A stretch of 64,000 bases of DNA from Alcaligenes aquatilis. GTDB taxonomy: Bacteria > Pseudomonadota > Gammaproteobacteria > Burkholderiales > Burkholderiaceae_B. Made by a program: the position numbers and the translations under genes. Shown here in pieces: positions 51,287-63,330 of the stretch (position 1 is the stretch's first letter; every line of letters starts with the position of its first letter). Below the pieces are notes generated by a model. That model was not told the DNA's origin and did not search any database. It saw nothing but the letters and a program-made list of their open reading frames with translations. Location: assembly GCF_003076515.1 (NCBI RefSeq), contig NZ_CP022390.1, positions 1,798,001 through 1,862,000 of the forward strand. The letters are read 5' to 3'.

Positions 51287-53027
<1,741 letters not shown>

Positions 53028-53050
53028 TTTTCTTTATTGAGTACAGACGT

Positions 53051-53082
53051 AAAAAAGGCCAGCTTTCGCTGGCCTTTTTTTT
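53051..53082 (+). terminator. Terminator of trxB-smr
   Basis: AAAAAAGGCCAGC, a short loop and GCTGGCCTTTTTT form a long stem ending in eight Ts, 24 bases past the Smr gene. Confidence 0.92.
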
Positions 53083-53275
53083 GTTGTTGTTATGTTGTAC
53101 TGCCTATTGCTTTTATAATAGTGACCGTTTTGTTCCGGTCTTTGTTGCCCAGCTTCGCGGGCTATGTCTCCTCACCTGCATGAAACGTATTGTGCCCCAT
53201 TTATAACGCTGTCACACTTAGGGAATGCACTGATACCCGCATCGCAAGAAAAGATCCGTCGCCCATTCGTAATGT

Positions 53276-53602
53276 TTATTCGGCTGCCTGCTCCAAAGCC
53301 TTTACGGCCCGTTTCAAAAACACCTGCATTTCTTTCTCAGCCTGCTTATCGCCCTGTTCCTGGGCAATTACCAAACCCTGCTCCAGAATTTCCCTGGCCT
53401 GTTTGAATTGCTGCAGATTCACCAGCACCCGGCCCAATAGCTTCCAGGCTGCGGTGTAACGCGGATTCATTTCCACCGCTTTGGACAAATGTTCACGAGC
53501 GGCTTCCAAATCACCCTCGCCCATACACGCATTGCCCAAGCCAAAGCGCAGCAAGGCATTATCCTTGCCTGCGGCCAGTAATTTCTCCAATCCTTCGCGC
53601 AT
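53276..53602 (-). CDS. Small TPR-repeat protein
   Basis: A 108-residue protein of about two and a half tetratricopeptide repeats: residues 12-45 (ALLRFGLGNACMGEGDLEAA) and 46-79 (YTAAWKLLGRVLVNLQQFKQA), then a third helix pair. No signal peptide. It is a likely protein-interaction module. The frame is open to 53701, but ATG 53602 begins at the first TPR helix; the longer start adds a hydrophobic segment that could be a membrane anchor, so the choice is not certain. Confidence 0.75.
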   Translation of the reverse strand: MREGLEKLLAAGKDNALLRFGLGNACMGEGDLEAAREHLSKAVEMNPRYTAAWKLLGRVLVNLQQFKQAREILEQGLVIAQEQGDKQAEKEMQVFLKRAVKALEQAAE

Positions 53603-53816
53603 AATCCGTACCTCTGAAAACCCAGCAAGACTTGGCCGCGTTGCCTTCGCACAAAGCAAAATAGCGACAGCGATAAGCCTGAACAGCTTGATGGCTATCA
53701 AACAATATAACCATCAATCTTTAAGCTTGGTTTTGTAGCACGGAATATCAACGAGCAACCAAGCAGCCCAGGCTCGGTAGGCCCATTCCCCTGCCGGTAC
53801 CGCCTTGGCTAGCGCT

Positions 53817-54863
53817 TTAGGCCAGATCGCCTTGCAACACCCCCTTGCTGACCACTTCACGGCCATCCAGGCTCACCGTGCAATTACGCATCGGATAGTC
53901 GAAGTGGCAATCGGAAAAACGACCTGCCGCAGGATTGGCGCCAGTAGAAAAGAGAAAGTTACCCGCAAAGGCACGCAACTCCGTTCCGTTGGTATCGCGC
54001 TTGTCGTACATGGCCAAGGAATCCCAACGAGCTGCCGGTGCCATGCCCCAGCCCACATGGCTGACCGCATAGGCATCCTTGTCATTCCAGCTTGCGTAGT
54101 AGGAACGGATCAAATCGGCATCCACGCCCTTGCCCTCAATAGCCACGACATAATCGTTTTCGATACGCAGGGTCACCGCCGATTCCAGATAACGCTTGAA
54201 GGTCAGGTTCACATCCCCGCTATCGAGCACCAGCGTGCCATTCACACTGCCATTGCTGGGGTAGCAAATACATAAGCCGGCAGGCCAGTACCCAAAACTG
54301 CCCGGCTTGTCGGCAATCCCGGCGCTGCCGCGTCCGATCACCCCCGCCAGGCTGACCGTCAAACCCGTACCGGCCTCGGAGCTGATGTGCATGACGCTGG
54401 CATCGCTAATTAGTTTGCCGCCAATATCGCACTTGCTTTGCAAGTAAGGACTGGGTTTGACCCGCTCCAGAATCTCGGGATGCTCGTCGCTGATCATCAT
54501 GATGCGGGCACCGTTGGCCAGCAGAGCCGCACGCTCGGGCGAATGCAGCAACCCTTCTACCGTGCAGTCCACGATGAACTGGCTGCCTGCCAAAGCCTGA
54601 ACAATCGGGTCCATACCCTCCAGAGCCAAAGAAGTCCCAGTCGAGCGCAAGGCAATATTGCTTTTCAGACGTGGCGAGACTAATTTCACATGACAAACCC
54701 GTGCGCCCATTTGCGTCAGGGCCAACTCGGCCAGCTCGGCCAGCACGGAGCGCGATTGCGTCTCGGACAGCACAACGGCCATCTCGCCGGGCTGCACCTT
54801 GCACAGTCCAAACACTTCTACAAAATCAGCAATCCACTTGCCTTCAATATGCTCACGCAACAT
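53817..54863 (-). CDS. NicX-like 2,5-dihydroxypyridine 5,6-dioxygenase homologue
   Basis: The 348 residues align, from memory, along the whole length of Pseudomonas putida NicX, an Fe(II) dioxygenase that opens 2,5-dihydroxypyridine to N-formylmaleamate in the cytosol. The NicX metal ligands have counterparts: H269 in SHVGWGM, and H320 and D322 in DCHFDYPMRNC. Shared blocks include GNFLFSTG and the GTLVLDSGD region. The fold is that of the M29 aminopeptidases, but the M29 metal set is not evident. ATG 54863 is chosen; upstream frame extends into the transporter gene's end. Last gene of a three-gene unit. The true substrate could be another dihydroxylated N-heterocycle. Confidence 0.78.
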   Translation of the reverse strand: MLREHIEGKWIADFVEVFGLCKVQPGEMAVVLSETQSRSVLAELAELALTQMGARVCHVKLVSPRLKSNIALRSTGTSLALEGMDPIVQALAGSQFIVDCTVEGLLHSPERAALLANGARIMMISDEHPEILERVKPSPYLQSKCDIGGKLISDASVMHISSEAGTGLTVSLAGVIGRGSAGIADKPGSFGYWPAGLCICYPSNGSVNGTLVLDSGDVNLTFKRYLESAVTLRIENDYVVAIEGKGVDADLIRSYYASWNDKDAYAVSHVGWGMAPAARWDSLAMYDKRDTNGTELRAFAGNFLFSTGANPAAGRFSDCHFDYPMRNCTVSLDGREVVSKGVLQGDLA

Positions 54864-54930
54864 CTCACTACTCCTAGAAAATTCAAAAAAACGCTGCACA
54901 GCTTTTTCAGCCGGGCAGCGCCTGTACACA

Positions 54931-56259
54931 TCAGTCGTGCAAGTCCTTGCCCTTGGTCTCGGGCGAGGCAATGGTGGCCCACAAGGCCAGAATGCACAGA
55001 CCAATCAGGTACCAGTCAAACACCTGCTTTTGATTGATGGAATGCAGCCAGGCTTGCAAATAGGGGGCAGTCCCGCCCGTCAGGGCACCAGCGACCGAAT
55101 ACGGCAAACCCATGGCGACCGCCCGGATACGAGTCGGAAACTGCTCGGGGAAAAAGGCGGGCATGATCGCAGTAGGGGCAGAGATTAAAAACATGCCGCC
55201 TACCATGAACACCACCAAACGCCAGATCTCGCCCTGGCCGCCAGTCAGCACCATGGTCAGCGGGATGATGCTGATGATGGAGCCGATAGAAAAGAAGTAC
55301 CAGTTCGCCTTGCGACCAAAGCGATCCGAAAATGCCCCCCAGAAAATCAAACACAGGATCAGGAACAGATTGGCCCCAACGCCTACCCACATCACCTTGG
55401 CAGCAGGCATGCCCAAAGAGGTAATGGCAAAGGTGGGTGCCATAATGGCCCAGACGTAATACAGCACCGTGCCGCCTGCCGACAAGGCAAAAACGCGCAA
55501 GCAGGCGCTGCGGTATTTCCAGACCTCTGACCAGAACACCCGCGCACCAGGACGTGCCGTTTTCCCCGAAGCCTGGGCAGCCTGACGGGCTTTGAACATG
55601 GGGGTTTCGTCCAGTTTTCTGCGCAGATACAGCGCATATACCCCCAAAGCACCACCCAGAACAAAGGGCACACGCCATGCCCAGGCCCGCACAACCTCTT
55701 CACCCAGCAGGCTGGTCAGGCAGGCACTGAGCAAGACAGCCGCCAGAACCCCGATCGTGACAAACACAAAGACGGAGGAAGACCACAGCCCGCGTTTATG
55801 GGCAGGTGCCATTTCAGTGACGTAAGTGAAAGAGGACACCACCTCCCCACCATGACCAATGCCTTGCAACAAGCGGCCCATCAACAAGAACAAGGCAGCA
55901 ATCGGCCCTACCATGTCATAAGTCGGTGCAACACCAATTACCAAACTGCCCAAGGCTGTCACCAGCATGGACAAAGTCATGGTGAAACGTCGCCCCTTGC
56001 GGTCGGCCAGCCAGCCAAAAAAGATGCCTCCCAAAGGGCGCATGAAAAAGCCCACGGCAAATACTGCCAGCGTGCCCAGCAAGGCCGCCAGCGGGTCCTC
56101 GCTATGAAAAAACTGCTTGGCAAAATAGGCGGCAAAAATCGAATACGCCGTCCAGTCGTACCACTCCAGGGCGTTACCCGCCCCAACCCCCAAAATAACG
56201 CGTCGACGCTGCGCAGCAGTCATGGGCTGCTCGCGCAAAGATGATGTAGGTGCGTCCAA
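54931..56259 (-). CDS. MFS transporter, metabolite:H+ symporter family
   Basis: A 442-residue, 12-helix major facilitator of the MHS family, whose members import organic acids such as ketoglutarate, shikimate, dicarboxylates and aromatic acids. The motif GWLADRKGRRFTM is between helices 2 and 3, and GHGGEVVSSFTYVTEMAP in helix 4-5 is a MHS signature. The gene lies 59 bases after the flavin reductase and 67 bases ahead of the NicX-like gene, so it most likely imports the pathway substrate. Confidence 0.85.
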   Translation of the reverse strand: MDAPTSSLREQPMTAAQRRRVILGVGAGNALEWYDWTAYSIFAAYFAKQFFHSEDPLAALLGTLAVFAVGFFMRPLGGIFFGWLADRKGRRFTMTLSMLVTALGSLVIGVAPTYDMVGPIAALFLLMGRLLQGIGHGGEVVSSFTYVTEMAPAHKRGLWSSSVFVFVTIGVLAAVLLSACLTSLLGEEVVRAWAWRVPFVLGGALGVYALYLRRKLDETPMFKARQAAQASGKTARPGARVFWSEVWKYRSACLRVFALSAGGTVLYYVWAIMAPTFAITSLGMPAAKVMWVGVGANLFLILCLIFWGAFSDRFGRKANWYFFSIGSIISIIPLTMVLTGGQGEIWRLVVFMVGGMFLISAPTAIMPAFFPEQFPTRIRAVAMGLPYSVAGALTGGTAPYLQAWLHSINQKQVFDWYLIGLCILALWATIASPETKGKDLHD

Positions 56260-56318
56260 GAGATGTCCCCTTCACTGTGATAGTTATGCTTCTTGTTGTT
56301 TGTTTTTGATCCGGTGGC

Positions 56319-56816
56319 TCAGGCCACCAACTGCGTGAAACGAGAACGATGAAAGATCAGTGGCGAGATTTCGCGTTCGATCTGCACATCGTGGATAAGC
56401 AATTGCACGGCATCGTGGTCCCCGGCCGGATGCACTTGAAAAACACTGCAGTCAAACCAGACTGATGCCCCTTGGATATGGACAGCCCCCTCCTCGGTCA
56501 GCTCGACCTCGATATCGCTGAAGCGGCTGTCCTTGTCCGGCCCAGCCAGCTGATGGCAAATAGCCGCATGTTCAGCACTCAAAATTGACACCCCCAGACG
56601 CGAGGCGCTCGACAGCAGCGCCCAGGTCGAGGAACTTTTCTGTACAAAAAAGGCGGCCAAAGGCGGATCCAGCGATACCCCTACGGAAAAACTGGACGCC
56701 ACAATGACGTGCGGCTTGCCATCGAGCACAGCCGCAATAGCGGCAACCCCCGACGGAAAGTGCCCAAAGGCTTCGCGTACCGCCCTGGCTCCCAACCCAC
56801 TTATGTTTTCTTTCAT
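56319..56816 (-). CDS. Flavin reductase (FMN/FAD-dependent, HpaC-like)
   Basis: A 165-residue split-barrel flavin reductase that supplies reduced flavin to two-component monooxygenases using NAD(P)H. FGHFPSGVAAIAA, SSFSVGVSLDPPLAAFFVQKSSSTW and the terminal FHRSRFTQL are typical of this family. It is the first gene of the minus-strand unit. The natural partner is the hydroxylase at 59833-61068, on the far side of the regulator gene. Confidence 0.87.
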   Translation of the reverse strand: MKENISGLGARAVREAFGHFPSGVAAIAAVLDGKPHVIVASSFSVGVSLDPPLAAFFVQKSSSTWALLSSASRLGVSILSAEHAAICHQLAGPDKDSRFSDIEVELTEEGAVHIQGASVWFDCSVFQVHPAGDHDAVQLLIHDVQIEREISPLIFHRSRFTQLVA

Positions 56817-56913
56817 GACGATGACTCTGCTCAGGCGTTAAAGACCCAAAACCCAAAATGAGGCGAGCGCTCCTGTAGCCTGCTCGCTTGGCCTAAATTC
56901 TGTTTCGATCGTC

Positions 56914-56928
56914 ATTTATTTGCAATAA
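56914..56928. promoter_or_regulatory. Palindromic operator candidate, site A
   Basis: ATTTATTTGCAATAA, containing TTATT-TGC-AATAA. An identical 15-mer recurs at 57054. It lies about 100 bases ahead of the flavin reductase start, over a plausible promoter. Confidence 0.55.
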
Positions 56929-57001
56929 CAAAATAGACAATCAATGTCTTTTTTTGTTTATTTTAGGTATTAACCCTATGAAAAATCGTCGTTTTAAACA
57001 C

Positions 57002-57013
57002 TATAGGCCTATA
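57002..57013. repeat. Perfect 12-bp palindrome TATAGGCCTATA
   Basis: Lies midway between the divergent flavin reductase and Dabb genes, beside the repeated operator-like sites. It may be chance in AT-rich sequence. Confidence 0.35.
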
Positions 57014-57028
57014 CAATTTGCCTGTAAT

Positions 57029-57041
57029 TTATTGCGAATAA
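57029..57041. promoter_or_regulatory. Palindromic operator candidate, site C
   Basis: TTATT-GCG-AATAA has the same palindromic arms as sites A and B and differs only in the centre. It is 13 bases ahead of site B. Confidence 0.55.
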
Positions 57042-57053
57042 TGATCTGTAATT

Positions 57054-57068
57054 ATTTATTTGCAATAA
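57054..57068. promoter_or_regulatory. Palindromic operator candidate, site B
   Basis: An exact copy of the site A 15-mer ATTTATTTGCAATAA, 63 bases ahead of the Dabb gene. Confidence 0.55.
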
Positions 57069-57130
57069 AACACCAATTAATAAAGCCCTGAACTACGGCA
57101 ACAGGGCCTATCCCTGACAAGAAGGACAGC

Positions 57131-57436
57131 ATGTATCTACATATCGTTTTGATGGCGCCCCACACCCCGCTCAGCCCGGAGCTGGTCCCCAAGCTGGATC
57201 ACGCCTTTATCCGCATACGCCAGGAGTGCCCAGGCATAGAGCGCTTTGAGTGGGTGCCGAATTTGTCGCGCAGCTCTGCGCGCTACAGCCATGCCCTGCT
57301 GTCCGTATTCCGCACGCAGGAAGCTTTGGACGCTTACCGGGAGAGTGACGCTCATCAGGCCATGCTCGATGCCATCGCTGCGCATATTCAGGACATCGTG
57401 GTGCTGGACAGCGTGCTGGAGGAAAACCTGCCCTGA
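57131..57436 (+). CDS. Dabb (stress-responsive alpha/beta-barrel) protein
   Basis: A 101-residue ferredoxin-like dimeric alpha/beta-barrel protein. It starts MYLHIVLMAP and has the Dabb pattern of a first strand, a helix with charged residues, ERFEWVPNLSRSS, HALLSVFRTQEALDAYRESDAHQAML. Members act as small oxygenases, isomerases, olivetolic-acid-type cyclases or have unknown roles; no catalytic pair is obvious. GAAGGA lies before the ATG. First gene of the plus-strand pair, within the catabolic region. Confidence 0.8.
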   Translation: MYLHIVLMAPHTPLSPELVPKLDHAFIRIRQECPGIERFEWVPNLSRSSARYSHALLSVFRTQEALDAYRESDAHQAMLDAIAAHIQDIVVLDSVLEENLP

Positions 57437-57583
57437 AAGGCCATGTCGCAGCCCTGTCGTACAAGACGTAACAAGCCTCGAATGCGGCCACGCTAGCGCC
57501 GCCGGGGCACGCACGGTAAAATGGCCCGCTACAAACCTACTATCAAAAATGGGTAGCGATCAGCCCCTCCACCGGAAAACAGA

Positions 57584-58480
57584 ATGAAAGCAAGCGTCGC
57601 GATTGATGAGTTCATCGCCAGCCGAGACCATGGCGAGCACGAGCAACTTGCCCCGCACCACTACATTCTGACGCTCTACGGTCTGTTCGCCCGTCCCACG
57701 GGCGTCATCATTCCGGTGGCCAGCGTGGTCCAACTGCTAGCTGACCTGGGCGCTGAGCCATCCAGTGTGCGATCCGCTATTTCCCGACTCAAGAAAAAAG
57801 GCGTACTGGTCAGCCAACAAGCCGCCTCAGGCAAAGGCTATGCCTTGGCCGCCGAGCTGGAACCGCATATGCAAGCCGGTGACGAGCGGATTTTCTCCTC
57901 GCCCTCCATGAATATTCGGGATCCCTGGCTACTGGTCTCCTTCTCTGTTCCAGAAAGCGAACGCCAGAACCGTCACAAGATTCGTACCGGCTTGGCCCGC
58001 ATGGGTTTTGGCACGGTGAATGCGGGCCTGTATATAGGTCCGGCGCGCTTGCAGGCAGAGGCTGTCGAGTACATACGCGAGCACCAGCTCTGGCCCTATA
58101 TTGAGTTGTTCACCTGCGAACCCAGTGGCCTGAGCGATATTCAGGAAAAAATTTCCCGCTGGTGGAATTGGGACAAATTGGCCAACGAGTACCAGTCCTT
58201 TTTAAACTCATATCAGCACGAGGTTGAGGTCTGGCAAACCGCTTTGCGCCAGGGCACGGGCGACCCGCTGGAAGCCTTCCGCCTCTATATGCCCATGGTG
58301 ACCCGCTGGCGCAGACTGCCCTTTCTGGATCCCGGCCTGGCACCCGAGCTATTGCCTGACAACTGGGTCGGCAATACGGCCCGTAAATTATTTGGTGACC
58401 TACACCGCCTGCTTAGCCCCTTGAGTTCGCAACACGTGCAACAGGCCATTCCAAACTGGAAGGCCCACCGCGCGGAGTAG
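57584..58480 (+). CDS. PaaX-family transcriptional regulator
   Basis: A 298-residue repressor-type regulator. The N-terminus has a winged helix (VASVVQLLADLGAEPSSVRSAISRLKKKGVLVSQQ, residues about 48-85), the centre the PaaX middle domain (DPWLLVSFSVPESERQNRHKIRTGLARMGFG) and the C-terminus the PaaX_C domain (RWRRLPFLDPGLAPELLPDNW). PaaX itself binds phenylacetyl-CoA; this member need not. With no phenylacetate genes here it is the natural regulator of the neighbouring dioxygenase, transporter and hydroxylase genes. Confidence 0.88.
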   Translation: MKASVAIDEFIASRDHGEHEQLAPHHYILTLYGLFARPTGVIIPVASVVQLLADLGAEPSSVRSAISRLKKKGVLVSQQAASGKGYALAAELEPHMQAGDERIFSSPSMNIRDPWLLVSFSVPESERQNRHKIRTGLARMGFGTVNAGLYIGPARLQAEAVEYIREHQLWPYIELFTCEPSGLSDIQEKISRWWNWDKLANEYQSFLNSYQHEVEVWQTALRQGTGDPLEAFRLYMPMVTRWRRLPFLDPGLAPELLPDNWVGNTARKLFGDLHRLLSPLSSQHVQQAIPNWKAHRAE

Positions 58481-58494
58481 ATCAGCTTCTGGAG

Positions 58495-59829
58495 TCATGC
58501 CCCTACAAAACGAGCAATGTCCCCCCTCAAGTCCTGGGAAACACACTCAAATCGTTCCTGCGTTACCCCCTGCATCATAGGGGCATCCTGCCAAGCCAGG
58601 AAGTTGCCAAACTGAAACGGCAGATCAAAACAATGCCCACTGAACACCGCATCAAGTGGGCTTTGCTCTGTAAAGCCACTCCACACCACAGCTCGCCCCG
58701 CTGCTTTCAGGCTAGCCGCATACTGGGTAGGAAAGCGCTGAAACTGCAACCAGGAAGACGCCGCCACAACTTGCTGATACGGTGTCAAGCCCGACTCTGC
58801 TCCCTGATACACGCCGTTTCGCAGCAGGTTGGCGGGTAAATCTTCCGCAGGCCATACACCCAAAGCCTGATCGACCTGCTCTTGCGTCGCCTGCCGATGA
58901 AAAGGCACGTCAAAAAAGAACACCGAGGACTCTTGGGCAGTACAACGCAGATACACCGCCTGCGCATGGCAGGTTTGTGCCGCCCAGTCAGGATTCAATA
59001 AATCCGGCGGCATCCCGGCACTGGCCACAGGCAGGAATGCCGAAGGAGCATGAGCCAAGCGTGGTGGCTCTTTACCCAAGGCCAGCATGCCATGCTGCAT
59101 CAAGGTATCCACGTCCGCCATCAACCACTGATCGCCCAGGCTTTGTCGCACACGCTCCGTGGTTTTTCTTTGTTGCTCGGGCGTCCACGGTGTGCGCGTC
59201 CCCATGCTGAGCAAAGCCACGCGATCAATCCAGCCTCGCGTGGACTCCAGCACACTGAGCAAATGCGCGTACCAGCCACCCGCCGACTGCCCCATCAAGG
59301 TGATCTTGTCCGGGTCGCCACCAAAGGCGTGGATGCGATCTTTCACCCATTGCAGCGCCAAGAGCAAATCGGCTGCTGGTAAAGGCAAATCATCCGCCTG
59401 TGCATCACCCAAGTGCCCCAAGGCGCCCAGACGATAATTCACATTGACGACCACCATGCCCTGCGCTGCCAAACGGGTGCCGTCATACCAATTCAAAGAA
59501 GCACCACCACTCATCCAGGCACCACCGTGGATAAAAAAGACGACAGGCAGACCTTGCGCTTGAGCTGGCGCCCACACATTCAGAAAGTAAGCATCTTCAG
59601 ATTGGGGGTTGGCACTGCCTGCGCCCATGACCGCAGCAAGGCGGCTGGGGCGCTGCGGAAATAAAGGCACCTGACCCAGAGATGTCGCTGCCACCCGCCC
59701 CGTCGCCGCCTGCGCCGCTTCAAAACGATGCGTGCCTTGGGCGTAACGCAGGCCATACCAGGCCTGCACCTCTACGCCATCGGCACGACAACGGCGCGAG
59801 GGCGCATTGATCAGCAATGTCGCCGTCAT
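58495..59829 (-). CDS. Carboxylesterase, type B
   Basis: An alpha/beta-hydrolase of the carboxylesterase/cholinesterase family without signal peptide, so cytosolic. The oxyanion loop is HGGAW at 101-105, the nucleophile is S182 in GQSAGG, and the catalytic histidine is probably in SGHCFDLPF near residue 405. At 444 residues it is shorter than the usual 500 or so. The start follows the hydroxylase stop after three bases, so the two are made together. It may open the pathway by hydrolysing an ester, or replace a deformylase downstream of ring cleavage; both are inference. Confidence 0.83.
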   Translation of the reverse strand: MTATLLINAPSRRCRADGVEVQAWYGLRYAQGTHRFEAAQAATGRVAATSLGQVPLFPQRPSRLAAVMGAGSANPQSEDAYFLNVWAPAQAQGLPVVFFIHGGAWMSGGASLNWYDGTRLAAQGMVVVNVNYRLGALGHLGDAQADDLPLPAADLLLALQWVKDRIHAFGGDPDKITLMGQSAGGWYAHLLSVLESTRGWIDRVALLSMGTRTPWTPEQQRKTTERVRQSLGDQWLMADVDTLMQHGMLALGKEPPRLAHAPSAFLPVASAGMPPDLLNPDWAAQTCHAQAVYLRCTAQESSVFFFDVPFHRQATQEQVDQALGVWPAEDLPANLLRNGVYQGAESGLTPYQQVVAASSWLQFQRFPTQYAASLKAAGRAVVWSGFTEQSPLDAVFSGHCFDLPFQFGNFLAWQDAPMMQGVTQERFECVSQDLRGDIARFVGA

Positions 59830-59832
59830 GGC

Positions 59833-61068
59833 TTAGAGCTTGTTGGAAATATAAGGCGTACCGGTCATGCCGTTGCCGTGCAGCTCGTATCCCATGGGCG
59901 CGGTAATCGAGGCATGGCGAGTACCGGTATTAATATCGCGCCACATCCGGCCCAGCGGGCTGTTTTCCGCAAACGAAGCGGTGCCATGCAACCAGCAAAG
60001 ATTGTTCACCGCATCCACCAGTTCGTGTCCGGCATGGCCGATCCCGGCGCGATGACGCGCACGCAGTTCCAAGGGCATGGGCACTATGCCAGAGGCAGCC
60101 GCATCAATCTGCGCCGCAGCACGTTCCAACAATAAACGGGCGCCATCAATCTGGATACTGGCCGAGCCCAAGTTCTGCACAAACGCCCCCGAGTCCGACT
60201 GTTTCTTGTAATGGGTATAGGTAATGCCACGCTTGCCACTGACGCCACTGGTGAAATCCACGGCAGCTTGAGCCGCTCCCAAAGATGGCGCTTGAATGCA
60301 GGTGGACATGGTCAGGTGCGGCGTCAAACGACGGCCAAACGTGGCCGAAGGATCTTGCTCCTGCACATCACCCATCAATTGCTGAAACGTGATCAAGCGC
60401 TCTTTGGGCACCCACAGGTTTTCAGCCACCATGGTGTTGGAGCCAGAACCGCGCATACCGATGGTGTACCAGGTGTCCTGAATGTCAAACTCATCACGAC
60501 GCATCAACACAAAGCCCACGGTAGGCTCGACCAGCTCGCTTTCCTTGATGAACAGAATCCCCAGCGCCCAGTCCGAATGGTTGCTGTTCGATGCAAAAGG
60601 CCACTTGCCCGTAATGCGCCAGCCATCGCCATCCGGCGTTGCCGTGCCTTGCGGTTGAGCAAAAATGGACGCAGCACGGATAGGGCCATCTGCAAACACC
60701 TCATCGAGCATCGCATCGCTAAAACGGTTGGCCAGCATGACCGAACCATTCGAGATCACCACACACCAGGCGGCTGCCGGATCGTAATAGCCCACGGCGC
60801 TGGCGCACTGCAAGAGCATGTCCGCGCCACCCTCGTACCCGCCGTAGCGCTTCAAGGTCGAAATGCGCCAGGCCCCGGTGGACTCCAAAGCCTGAACCGC
60901 CTCATCCGACAACACGCGATTACGGTCAGCCTGTGGGGCCAGCTCGCGTAACAGCGGACCGATCTCATGGATACGTTCCAGAATCTCCTCTGTCTCCTGA
61001 CGGGATGGGGCCTGAGTAACGGTGACCCGCTCGTGCTCGGCGACCAACGTAGCTCCTGTGATAGTCAT
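59833..61068 (-). CDS. Flavin-dependent hydroxylase, acyl-CoA dehydrogenase fold
   Basis: A 411-residue group D flavin monooxygenase component related to DszC, HsaA and the indole monooxygenases (IifC/IndA). Seen: the flavin-binding middle domain with GWRITGKWPFASNSNHSDWALG and the C-terminal helical domain with HASITAPMGYELHGNG. The conserved TIGMRGSGSNTMVAENLWVP block is shared by hydroxylases of this fold. Such enzymes use reduced flavin from a separate reductase, here probably the gene at 56319-56816. It should hydroxylate an aromatic or heteroaromatic ring. Confidence 0.83.
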   Translation of the reverse strand: MTITGATLVAEHERVTVTQAPSRQETEEILERIHEIGPLLRELAPQADRNRVLSDEAVQALESTGAWRISTLKRYGGYEGGADMLLQCASAVGYYDPAAAWCVVISNGSVMLANRFSDAMLDEVFADGPIRAASIFAQPQGTATPDGDGWRITGKWPFASNSNHSDWALGILFIKESELVEPTVGFVLMRRDEFDIQDTWYTIGMRGSGSNTMVAENLWVPKERLITFQQLMGDVQEQDPSATFGRRLTPHLTMSTCIQAPSLGAAQAAVDFTSGVSGKRGITYTHYKKQSDSGAFVQNLGSASIQIDGARLLLERAAAQIDAAASGIVPMPLELRARHRAGIGHAGHELVDAVNNLCWLHGTASFAENSPLGRMWRDINTGTRHASITAPMGYELHGNGMTGTPYISNKL

Positions 61069-61079
61069 AACTGCTCCTT

Positions 61080-61260
61080 AGAATTATTTGATGTAGCAAA
61101 TTTATAGCCATCGTCAATTAATCGCAATATCAATAATTATGGAAACAGTCGAAAACTCTTGTTTTATTGGATTTATCCGGGTTTTTACCTAGTAAAAATC
61201 ACACCTTCTTTTTATTTTTAATTGCATAAAACTAACGATCAAAAATAATATGAGCGCAAT
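61080..61260. promoter_or_regulatory. AT-rich promoter region of the hydroxylase-esterase unit
   Basis: This strongly AT-rich stretch upstream of the hydroxylase contains two degenerate matches to the TTATT-N3-AATAA element: TTAATCGCAATAT near 61107 and TTAATTGCATAAA near 61218, each with three mismatches. No gene is present. Confidence 0.4.
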
Positions 61261-61311
61261 GATAGAAGAAAAAGACAGGAGCGGAACGGCCCGCCAAAGC
61301 ATGAGGCGAAA

Positions 61312-61343
61312 AAAAACCGCCGACCCGAAGGTCGACGGTTTTT
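61312..61343 (-). terminator. Terminator of icd
   Basis: AAAAACCGCCGACC and GGTCGACGGTTTTT pair around CGAA with one mismatch, 35 bases past the icd stop; the minus strand continues with a T-run. Confidence 0.88.
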
Positions 61344-61377
61344 CATGTGGAAAACTGGCTTTAACAGCCTGTTTTCA

Positions 61378-62634
61378 TTACATGTTTTCGATCATGACAT
61401 CGCCAAAACCGGAGCAGGACACTTGAGTAGCGCCTTCCATCAGACGGGCAAAGTCATAAGTCACTTTACGCGAGGTGATGGATTTTTCCATGCTGGAGAT
61501 GATCAGATCAGCAGCTTCGGTCCAGCCCATGTGACGCAGCATCATTTCAGCGGACAAAATCAGCGAACCTGGGTTCACGTAGTCTTTGCCAGCGTACTTG
61601 GGAGCAGTACCGTGGGTAGCTTCGAACATGGCCACGGAGTCGGACAGGTTGGCGCCGGGAGCGATACCAATACCACCGACTTGAGCAGCCAGAGCGTCGG
61701 AGATGTAGTCGCCATTCAGGTTCAGTGTGGCGATAACGTCGTACTCGGCAGGACGCAGCAGGATCTGTTGCAAGAAGGCGTCAGCAATCGAATCCTTGAC
61801 GATGATCTCGCGACCGGTCTTGGGATTCTTGAATTTGCACCATGGGCCGCCGTCGATCAATTCAGCGCCGAATTCTTTTTGAGCCAGTTCGTAGGCCCAA
61901 TCACGGAAGCCACCTTCGGTGAACTTCATGATGTTGCCCTTGTGAACGATGGTCACGGAAGAGCGATCGTTGTCGATGGCGTACTGGATGGCCTTGCGCA
62001 CCAGGCGCTCGGTACCTTCGCGGGAAACAGGCTTGACACCGATACCGGAAGTATTGGGGAAGCGGATCTTGTTCACGCCCAGAGTGGTTTGCAGGAAGTC
62101 GATCAGCTTCTTGGCGCTTTCGGACTCAGCAGCAAATTCGATACCGGCGTAAATGTCTTCGGAGTTCTCGCGGAAAATGACCATTTCGGTCTTTTCTGGC
62201 TCACGCACAGGCGAAGGAACACCCTTGAAGTAGCGCACAGGGCGCAGGCAGACGTACAGGTCCAGTTGCTGACGCAGGGCCACGTTCAGGGAACGGATGC
62301 CGCCGCCAACGGGGGTGGTCAGAGGGCCTTTGATGGACACGACGTAGTCTTTAACGGCATCCAGAGTTTCTTCTGGCAGCCAGACGTCGGAACCGTACAC
62401 CTTGGTGGATTTTTCACCGGCGAACACTTCCATCCATTCGATCTTGCGCTTGCCGCCATACGCTTTGGCAACCGCAGCATCGACCACTTTGATCATGACT
62501 GGCGAAATATCCACGCCCGTACCATCACCCTCGATGTAGGGAATAATGGGTTGATCGGGAACATTCAGGGAAAAATCCGCGTTAACTGTAATTTTCTGCC
62601 CCGACGCGGGGATCTTGATATGCTGATAGGACAT
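61378..62634 (-). CDS. icd: Isocitrate dehydrogenase (NADP)
   Basis: Icd decarboxylates isocitrate to 2-oxoglutarate in the citric-acid cycle. The 418 residues are the E. coli-like form: [12 protein letters not shown] near the N-terminus, the substrate loop [17 protein letters not shown] with the serine that AceK phosphorylates in E. coli, and [25 protein letters not shown]. The NADP-specifying residues near [14 protein letters not shown] fit the dimeric NADP type. It is single, with its own terminator. Confidence 0.96.
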
Positions 62635-62756
62635 GGATGCTCCAGTTGTGCTCCAATATTAGGGATAGCTAAACACGGAACGCTTTTGCGTTTCCGAAGT
62701 CTTATATAAGAGTTTAACTTAATTCGCGCGTATTCAGGCACCTGTAAACTCAAAGC

Positions 62757-62784
62757 TTGTCAAAAATGCTTGCATTCTTGACAA
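62757..62784. promoter_or_regulatory. Long inverted repeat between icd and the DUF1841 gene
   Basis: TTGTCAAAAATGC and GCATTCTTGACAA are inverted repeats of 13 bases, 12 of them matching, around TT. Each arm contains TTGACA on one strand. No -10 box sits at normal distance, so a regulator site is more likely than paired promoters. Confidence 0.5.
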
Positions 62785-62901
62785 CTTATCTATTCTACAC
62801 GGCCCCGATGGTGGCTTGTACCAGCCAGTCATTCTCACCGTTTCCCGTAAAATGCGCGCCAAAGATTCGCATTTTCTGACCATTTTTTTCTCGACTCCAC
62901 C

Positions 62902-63330
62902 ATGTTCAACCCCTCTCGCGAGCAGGTTCGCCAATTTTTCATTGAAGCTTGGGACAAACACCAAAGTGGTCATCTGCTGACCGCTCTAGAGACCATGGCA
63001 GTGGATCTGGTACAGCAGCACCCCGAGTACCACGACGATTTACGTAACGCCGATGCCGTCAGTCAGGACTATTCCGTGGAGCAAGGACGCAGCAACCCTT
63101 TCTTGCACCTGTCCATGCACCTGGCCATCAATGAGCAACTGTCGATTGACCAGCCTCCGGGCATCAAGGCAGCGTATCAGCGCTTATTGACCAAGCACGA
63201 TCAGCATGCCGCAGCGCACATCATCATGGAGGCACTGGGCGAGGTGATCTGGGAAGCACAACGTCTGGGCACGCCGCTAAACAATGAGCGCTATATCGAA
63301 TTGATTTTGCGCCACAGCACGCGCGACTAA
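62902..63330 (+). CDS. DUF1841 family protein
   Basis: A 142-residue cytosolic protein starting MFNPSREQVRQFF, the DUF1841 opening, with NPFLHLSMHLAINEQLSIDQPPGI and HIIMEALGEVIWEAQR as further conserved blocks. The function is unknown. In Burkholderiales it usually lies next to c-type cytochrome genes, as here. No signal or membrane segment is visible. Confidence 0.88.
   Translation: MFNPSREQVRQFFIEAWDKHQSGHLLTALETMAVDLVQQHPEYHDDLRNADAVSQDYSVEQGRSNPFLHLSMHLAINEQLSIDQPPGIKAAYQRLLTKHDQHAAAHIIMEALGEVIWEAQRLGTPLNNERYIELILRHSTRD

Follow-up and report, generated by a model that had tools for sequence, protein, structure and literature searches.

For the opening of pyridine rings, the solved example is NicX of Pseudomonas putida KT2440, and its authors state that no activity on other substrates has been reported (PMC7910607). 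Its iron ligands H265, S302, H318 and D320 were established by mutation, E177 binds N1 and O1 of 2,5-dihydroxypyridine and H189 binds O1, and the activity left is 2.7% in the E177A mutant, 6.9% in H189A and none in the double mutant (PMC7910607). A gene for a relative of this enzyme, here called NicX2, was found in a compact set of seven genes at 53817-61068 of the window, which is the whole 64,000-nucleotide stretch analysed and corresponds to positions 1,798,001-1,862,000 of the 3.84-Mb single-contig genome of Alcaligenes aquatilis. The other six genes encode a putative importer of the MHS type (MHS), a flavin reductase (FR), a Dabb protein, a PaaX-family regulator, a type-B carboxylesterase (Est) and the oxygenase part of a two-component flavin hydroxylase (Mox). 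With moderate confidence, the set can be regarded as a PaaX-controlled unit in which MHS imports a compound, Est and Mox/FR convert it to a para-diol, NicX2 opens the ring, and PaaX represses expression until an effector is present.

A NicX-like dioxygenase with altered substrate-binding residues

The NicX2 dioxygenase gene (53817..54863, minus strand) encodes a predicted Fe(II) ring-cleavage enzyme of 348 residues, which aligned with KT2440 NicX (7cn3) over residues 16-341 (E 6e-57), the sole PDB match at E <= 1. The four iron ligands H265, S302, H318 and D320 are kept, as are R293, L104 and H105, and three positions differ: E177 is replaced by S, H189 by Y and V175 by R. The protein has no Pfam match even at E 10 and no NCBIfam match. 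Pfam presumably holds an M29 peptidase model, and no match to M29 aminopeptidases was obtained (Pfam to E 10; NicX as the only PDB match). Since the four iron ligands of NicX are kept, a peptidase is unlikely, which agrees with the earlier proposal that the gene encodes a putative ring-cleaving enzyme and not an aminopeptidase. The longest frame (53817-55004) enters the MHS gene, and the ATG at 54863 is preceded by an AGGAG-type site and gives the length that aligns in relatives, so the start is better placed at 54863 than at 55004. The nearest relatives found that carry names belong to Alcaligenes faecalis AU14, Alcaligenes sp. SORT26 and A. pakistanensis (97-99% identity).

A residue comparison of 107 sequences, reduced to 64 different ones, showed the iron ligands unchanged in all 64. 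E177 is absent from the 50 NicX2 sequences (replaced by S, V, G, T or N), a group at least 49% identical to the window protein and named here for this loss, and it is kept in 14/14 canonical sequences, which are 37-39% identical to the window protein. The two groups were split in the tree with 100/100 support; long branches meet at this point, which is to be read as a split and not as a rooted history. The combination R175/S177/Y189 occurs in 16 sequences, which form two clades in the drawn tree (11 and 5), the smaller one joined (95/91) by seven T177 sequences, suggesting that this signature may lack one clean origin.

The same genome also encodes a canonical NicX, with E177 in place, beside a nicD-like gene, so that 2,5-dihydroxypyridine is probably already served. 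These genes bear on an ordinary route, in which Mox/FR would turn a 3-hydroxypyridine-type compound into 2,5-dihydroxypyridine for cleavage by the NicX-like enzyme, and the nic locus elsewhere would finish the pathway by processing N-formylmaleamate. Degradation of 3-hydroxypyridine via 2,5-dihydroxypyridine has a precedent in Agrobacterium DW-1 (PMC6525221). However, a second 2,5-dihydroxypyridine dioxygenase would be redundant, the enzyme carries E177S and H189Y at the two positions whose double alanine mutant is dead in NicX (PMC7910607), and a NicD-like gene was found within 6 kb in none of 43 NicX2 loci. The ordinary route is therefore improbable, and 2,5-dihydroxypyridine, judged from the residues, an unlikely substrate of the cluster.

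Two further observations concern this family. Canonical loci with F105 (L039, L044 and others) raise the possibility that H105 is dispensable in some 2,5-dihydroxypyridine dioxygenases, or that the mechanism differs. An AlphaFold model of the window dioxygenase built from 8 sequences was set aside, as its mean pLDDT was 62.2, with values below 50 over residues 263-308, which include several iron-site residues.

Conservation of the neighbourhood and of a promoter motif

All seven open frames of the families named in the sequence-only reading were confirmed in their places, the start of the dioxygenase being the one revision. The FR, MHS and NicX2 genes lie on the minus strand, the divergent Dabb and PaaX genes on the plus strand, and then Est and Mox again on the minus strand, separated by 3 bases. 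Flanking genes outside the cluster are a TPR gene (53276..53701, minus strand, family match) and a gene at 61378..62634 (minus strand), identified by eye, which we take to be isocitrate dehydrogenase, a name that is not a family call. No tandem repeats were found at 52000-63000.

The neighbourhood was searched in a family sample of 200 genomes, 10 of them from the genus of the window; like the other samples used here, it was drawn evenly and does not cover every genome. The dioxygenase was present at 97% identity or more in 8 of the 10 Alcaligenes genomes, and all eight carry the seven genes in the same order (the window, L002, L003, L045, L046, L047, L069 and L070, the last of which shares its genome with L004). 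In another arrangement, the set is also found in three fragmented drafts from a second genus, here g4. Two of these loci (L048 and L049) contain PaaX, Est, Mox, FR, NicX2 (74-77%), an EthD-family protein and MHS, and the third (L050) contains PaaX, Est, Mox, FR and NicX2, followed by the contig end. The EthD-family protein of L048, which has a homologue in L049, stands in the place of Dabb; no sequence similarity was detected between Dabb and the EthD-like proteins of the g4 loci, so that a replacement of one by the other is a positional guess only. On separate contigs of one Alcaligenaceae metagenome-assembled genome lie two NicX2 stretches (L005/L050 and L012), whose identities to the window are 74% and 83%. 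An EthD-like gene comes after one of them. The genome may have two copies, or the bin may be mixed.

Orthologues of Mox (E <= 1e-50) were found in 11/200 family genomes, exactly the eight Alcaligenes and three g4 genomes described above. The Alcaligenes genome G001 has no such cluster: similarity to the isocitrate dehydrogenase gene stops at position 4595 of L099, and the coding sequence of the TPR gene starts about 140 bases further on. This empty site indicates that the seven genes form a self-contained block, which is either there or missing as a whole. G044 likewise lacks the cluster, and the TPR gene was not recognised there.

The regulator gene (57584..58480, plus strand) encodes a probable repressor of the cluster with the N-terminal, middle and C-terminal PaaX domains (PF07848, PF20803 and PF08223), all above the Pfam cut-offs, which places it in the family. 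It scored 155.9 bits against the equivalog model for PaaX of phenylacetate degradation, below the cut-off of 264.55. Three mismatch-free copies of TTATTYGCAATAA were found within 153 bases between FR and Dabb (56916, 57029 and 57056), and a two-mismatch form lies before Mox at 61118. The corresponding operator-like sites are site 1 (56906..56928, plus strand; core TTATTTGCAATAA at 56916), site 2 (57029..57041, minus strand; TTATTCGCAATAA), site 3 (57046..57068, plus strand; core TTATTTGCAATAA at 57056) and site 4 before the Mox-Est pair (61108..61130, plus strand). Allowing one mismatch at most, a 12-base form of the motif has 4 sites in the window against 0.28 expected, a number reached in 0/100 shuffles, and all four fall in the two promoter regions of the cluster.

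The motif was compared with eight other Alcaligenes loci, representing seven genomes. The outer sites 1 and 3, separated by 140 bases, are retained in 8/8 of these loci and show no more than one change; the core of site 1 is invariant in 9 aligned sequences (8 genomes), and that of site 3 has at most one change in all eight. Site 2 is degenerate (2 mismatches) or was not found in the other loci. A matrix made from the Alcaligenes sites only also matched the FR-Mox promoter of the g4 locus L049, where 0/300 first-order Markov sequences were as good, and L050, where 1/300 were. A 23-base pattern, CNRTCRTYNNTTAWWYGCAATAW, has two matches in the 3.84-Mb genome, both within the cluster; it was designed by eye, with two window sites and two g4 sites as its source, so that both hits were expected and only the absence elsewhere is informative. 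We infer that PaaX binds this operator-like motif. Between the operator-like sites lies a promoter-like site before FR-MHS-NicX2 (57000..57028, minus strand), the sole sigma-70-like match in 53500-61600, which is not significant alone since shuffles average 4.0 matches.

A second conserved block, AGGTATTAACCCT (window 56965-56977), was observed in the FR-Dabb promoter of the nine aligned Alcaligenes sequences, and GGTTTTCCC-like words occur in the Mox-FR promoters of the g4 loci (L048-L050). They may represent a promoter element or the site of a second regulator.

The sequence-only reading had proposed a joint pathway, and the eight Alcaligenes genomes, the three rearranged g4 drafts, the common promoter motif and the presence or absence of the block as a whole argue for it. 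The seven genes might instead be unrelated neighbours brought side by side by chance. They are divided among three transcription units, the Dabb and Est genes are more variable within Alcaligenes than the others (80-99% identity), and one genome (G067) has the dioxygenase without Mox. Nevertheless, an association kept across two genera despite rearrangement, a motif in both promoter regions and the block absence in G001 make chance a very remote explanation.

The hydroxylase-esterase pair and the proposed pathway

Mox (59833..61068, minus strand) is an HsaA/XiaF-like oxygenase with the acyl-CoA-dehydrogenase fold (PF08028). It scored 171.7 bits against the HsaA model (cut-off 450), and its closest solved relative is XiaF (5lvu, E 1.2e-70). 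The earlier assignment as a DszC/indole-type hydroxylase is retained for the fold and family; its indole part rests on XiaF only, and the oxygenases of the indole clusters iif and GS are of the styrene-monooxygenase type. FR (56319..56816, minus strand; PF01613, E 1e-29) resembles HsaB, FerA and HpaC, all below the model cut-offs, and is the putative supplier of reduced flavin to Mox. An acyl-CoA-dehydrogenase-fold oxygenase and a PF01613 reductase are both present, as in two-component HsaA/XiaF-type systems; the reductase is encoded in the neighbouring operon, and the pairing is putative. Est (58495..59829, minus strand; 444 residues) belongs to PF00135 (E 8e-47) and matches p-nitrobenzyl esterase (1c7i, E 1.7e-34).

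Est adjoins Mox in Alcaligenes, in g4 and in Shinella. Among 72,556 plasmid records, the best matches of Mox (48.7%) and Est (39.7%) fall in the same place, in Shinella sp. PSBB067, and the next among the matches listed are at 35.2% and 36.1%, respectively. The Shinella operon (L126 8977-16650) has the order Mox, Est, FR, gentisate-type dioxygenase, FAH-family protein, nitrilase-family protein and maleate isomerase. Upstream of these are genes for an AraC-type regulator, identified by eye, and a MetA-type porin. Its cupin is like gentisate 1,2-dioxygenase (3bu7, E 1e-168) and its isomerase like maleate isomerase (4fq7, E 7e-102); against the gentisate model the cupin scored 301.8 bits, below the cut-off of 442.1. 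At E <= 1e-80, the Shinella hydroxylase had no match among the 297 genomes searched from the family to which G530 belongs, a result that is uninformative without a genome known to match. The Shinella operon indicates that a Mox-Est-FR set seems able to feed gentisate-type para-diol ring cleavage, and it supports a para-diol substrate for NicX2, whose ring may be carbocyclic.

NicX2 was found at 50% identity or more in 19/398 sampled phylum genomes, the own genome included, and its gene company was surveyed in 43 different loci, considering neighbours within 6 kb; several of these loci end at contig ends. The census leaves out loci shorter than 6 kb, L012, L013/L068 (dioxygenase cut by a contig end), repeats of counted dioxygenase cores, and L061, where the dioxygenase is present although its frame was lost to an overlapping one. 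A flavin hydroxylase of some kind occurs in 40/43 loci (missing in L006, L055 and L106), and three kinds are represented: the Mox type, a distant acyl-CoA-dehydrogenase-fold type and a PF01494 FAD monooxygenase. An alpha/beta hydrolase occurs in 41/43 (missing in L106 and L111; the label in L006 rests on a partial match), divided into Est in 10 loci and another type (abH) in 31, with both in 0/43. A NicD-like gene adjoins canonical NicX in 11/13 small loci, at 64-86% to that of the own genome, and the NicD-like proteins share only partial similarity of 20-37% with the NicX2-linked hydrolases.

This division of the hydrolases, with Est only where abH is missing, fits a pyridine variant of the pathway, in which the substrate would be a substituted 3-hydroxypyridine or a pyridine carboxylic ester and Est, instead of NicD, would hydrolyse the N-acyl (imide) product of ring opening by NicX2; it is also in favour of this variant that characterised NicX cleaves a pyridine ring. 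However, Est is coupled in gene order to Mox and not to the dioxygenase, in Shinella as well, where the likely ring-step enzymes are a gentisate-type dioxygenase and an FAH-family protein. In addition, E177, the contact to the ring nitrogen, is lost, and amidase and maleate isomerase are absent from the seven genes. A pyridine substrate of this kind seems rather unlikely, though it deserves more weight than the ordinary route. An N-heteroaromatic substrate, which the sequence-only reading suggested beside an aromatic one, is not supported by these data: the binders of the pyridone N-H and 2-oxo groups (E177 and H189) are S and Y here, there is no NicD/NicF/NicE-type gene among the seven, and the Shinella pair precedes a gentisate-type dioxygenase.

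The place of Est in the pathway is uncertain. Its tie to Mox in Alcaligenes, g4 and Shinella would suggest that it acts early, and ester cleavage as the first step, the order given in the sequence-only reading, is possible; its occurrence only where the usual NicX2-linked hydrolase is absent would fit a late action.

Relatives of Mox and Est are rare. Mox at E <= 1e-50 was found in 2/398 genomes of the phylum sample, the own genome and one 33% relative, Est at E <= 1e-60 among 369 class genomes was found only in the own genome of the window, and no Mox DNA was found in E. coli genomes. This rarity could point to detoxification or turnover of a signal or antibiotic, in which an aromatic ester of the niche would be inactivated and any gain of carbon would be incidental, as could the role of XiaF, the nearest solved relative of Mox, which we take to lie in natural-product chemistry. 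Catabolism is the better fit for a dedicated importer and a ring-opening enzyme that share a regulator, and detoxification appears improbable.

In the favoured PaaX-controlled catabolic unit, the MHS symporter (54931..56259, minus strand; PF07690, PF00083 and TIGR00883, the last with 331.6 bits, under the cut-off of 443.45) would import an aromatic, probably acidic, compound. Est and the two-component hydroxylase Mox/FR would convert it to a para-dihydroxylated ring, which NicX2 would open with Fe(II) and O2 beside the hydroxylated carbon, as NicX and gentisate dioxygenase do, and the products would reach central metabolism via enzymes encoded elsewhere. PaaX may repress both promoter regions through the TTATTYGCAATAA-like sites until the effector binds, and the Dabb alpha/beta-barrel protein (57131..57436, plus strand; PF07876), like the EthD-family protein of g4, could be an accessory small-molecule protein.

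Several observations weigh against this interpretation. As a 13-base motif with two mismatches, the operator-like sequence is near chance in the window (5 found, 1.74 expected, as many in 4/100 shuffles), the two-mismatch site before Mox is present in just 4/8 other Alcaligenes loci (L002, L003, L047 and L069), and the Alcaligenes-only matrix was not significant in the g4 locus L048 (P 0.37). G067 holds an S177/Y189 dioxygenase (71%) with no Mox orthologue, only a partial 32% match, which means that the dioxygenase and Mox are not inseparable. Shinella is one record, with Est and Mox at 40-49% and the reductase at 29% to those of the window, and among the seven genes there is no obvious candidate for the step after cleavage, unless Est performs it. 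The residue changes are no proof of a new substrate: F stands at position 105 in 13/14 canonical relatives, the own paralogue included, while KT2440 NicX needs H105, showing that single residues are not decisive, and the structural model is poor at the iron site (block means of 30-44 for residues 261-310). To our knowledge, the NicX enzymes characterised act on 2,5-dihydroxypyridine.

A bolder and tentative extension is that the NicX fold holds a second family of ring-opening dioxygenases, NicX2, that has gone unnoticed. Its S177/Y189/R175 type would cleave a carboxylated, gentisate-like para-diol, possibly one built on a benzene ring. It would do the work of gentisate dioxygenase without being a cupin, and an esterase and a two-component flavin hydroxylase would supply its substrate; we hold this to be possible rather than probable.

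Other NicX2 loci have different company. In L058 (7546-13740), L054, L052 and L057, an R175/S177/Y189 NicX2 lies with a PF01494 FAD monooxygenase, a PcaD-like hydrolase, a LysR-like regulator and a LivK-like binding protein, which suggests that this kind of dioxygenase also serves in another type of pathway. On plasmids of Ensifer adhaerens (L127 9001-16729) and Aminobacter aminovorans (L128 5263-17376), NicX2 is annotated as 'peptidase M29' and accompanied by an acyl-CoA-dehydrogenase-type hydroxylase, an alpha/beta hydrolase, a TetR regulator, a glutamine-synthetase-like protein, a flavin reductase and an APC permease; the Aminobacter plasmid adds upstream genes for a gentisate-dioxygenase-like cupin, an FAH-family and a nitrilase-family protein. 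These plasmid sets look like another undescribed pathway, perhaps for an amine.

The window points to a large sister group of NicX that has kept the chemistry site and lost the glutamate that recognises 2,5-dihydroxypyridine, and that lies mostly beside flavin hydroxylases and non-NicD hydrolases. Because its genes are named 'peptidase M29' in public plasmid records, the group is hidden from pathway annotation. Strain QD168 of A. aquatilis grows on 3-hydroxybenzoate, benzamide and 4-aminobenzoate, and the available part of its description reports that no genes for these were found (PMC6460240). The cluster is a candidate for such Alcaligenes growth substrates without known genes.

Comparison with described systems

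The sequence-only reading knew of no described cluster with this combination, and no description of the seven genes together was found in the open-access literature, subscription papers lying outside the search; the literature on dipicolinate and Alcaligenes likewise gave nothing related. The window dioxygenase is homologous to NicX, PicD and NaaD over nearly the full length (E 6e-57), with the same four iron ligands and R293, L104 and H105, and differs from them in having S, Y and R for E177, H189 and V175, in a partner hydrolase that is not NicD and in its separate group in the tree (100/100). The nicotinate (nic) and picolinate (pic) clusters of Alcaligenes sp. P156 and A. faecalis JQ135 share with the window a NicX-family dioxygenase, a catabolic cluster and the genus (PMC6403243, PMC10142695). 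Unlike them, the seven genes include no deformylase, maleamate amidase, maleate isomerase, dehydrogenase-type hydroxylase or PicC decarboxylase, and the regulator is of the PaaX type, whereas PicR of the pic cluster belongs to the MarR family according to the title of a reference cited there.

The iif and GS indole clusters also combine a flavin oxygenase with a PF01613 reductase, but IifC and GS-C are of the styrene-monooxygenase type, in contrast to the PF08028 oxygenase of the window with its acyl-CoA-dehydrogenase fold, and no NicX-like gene is named in the available parts of their descriptions (PMC4577076, PMC9871250). The window set also lacks a short-chain dehydrogenase and a gene of the IifA/GS-A type (dienelactone-hydrolase/cyclase). 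HsaA/HsaB, HPA hydroxylase C2 and XiaF have the fold and the component split found in the window, with XiaF as the nearest solved relative, yet the window hydroxylase scored below every curated NCBIfam cut-off.

The Shinella sp. PSBB067 operon (L126) is like the window in its adjacent Mox, Est and FR genes, and differs in having a gentisate-type dioxygenase, an FAH-family protein, a nitrilase and a maleate isomerase for NicX2, and an AraC-type regulator and a MetA-type porin for PaaX and MHS. The cupin gentisate dioxygenase present in this relative is absent from the seven genes of the window in a Pfam scan. The set differs from all three of the nic, pic and iif clusters and is none of them, because the genes that define their lower pathways, or the type of oxygenase, are missing. 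The families in the set are known, while the pathway and the NicX2 subfamily appear to be undescribed.

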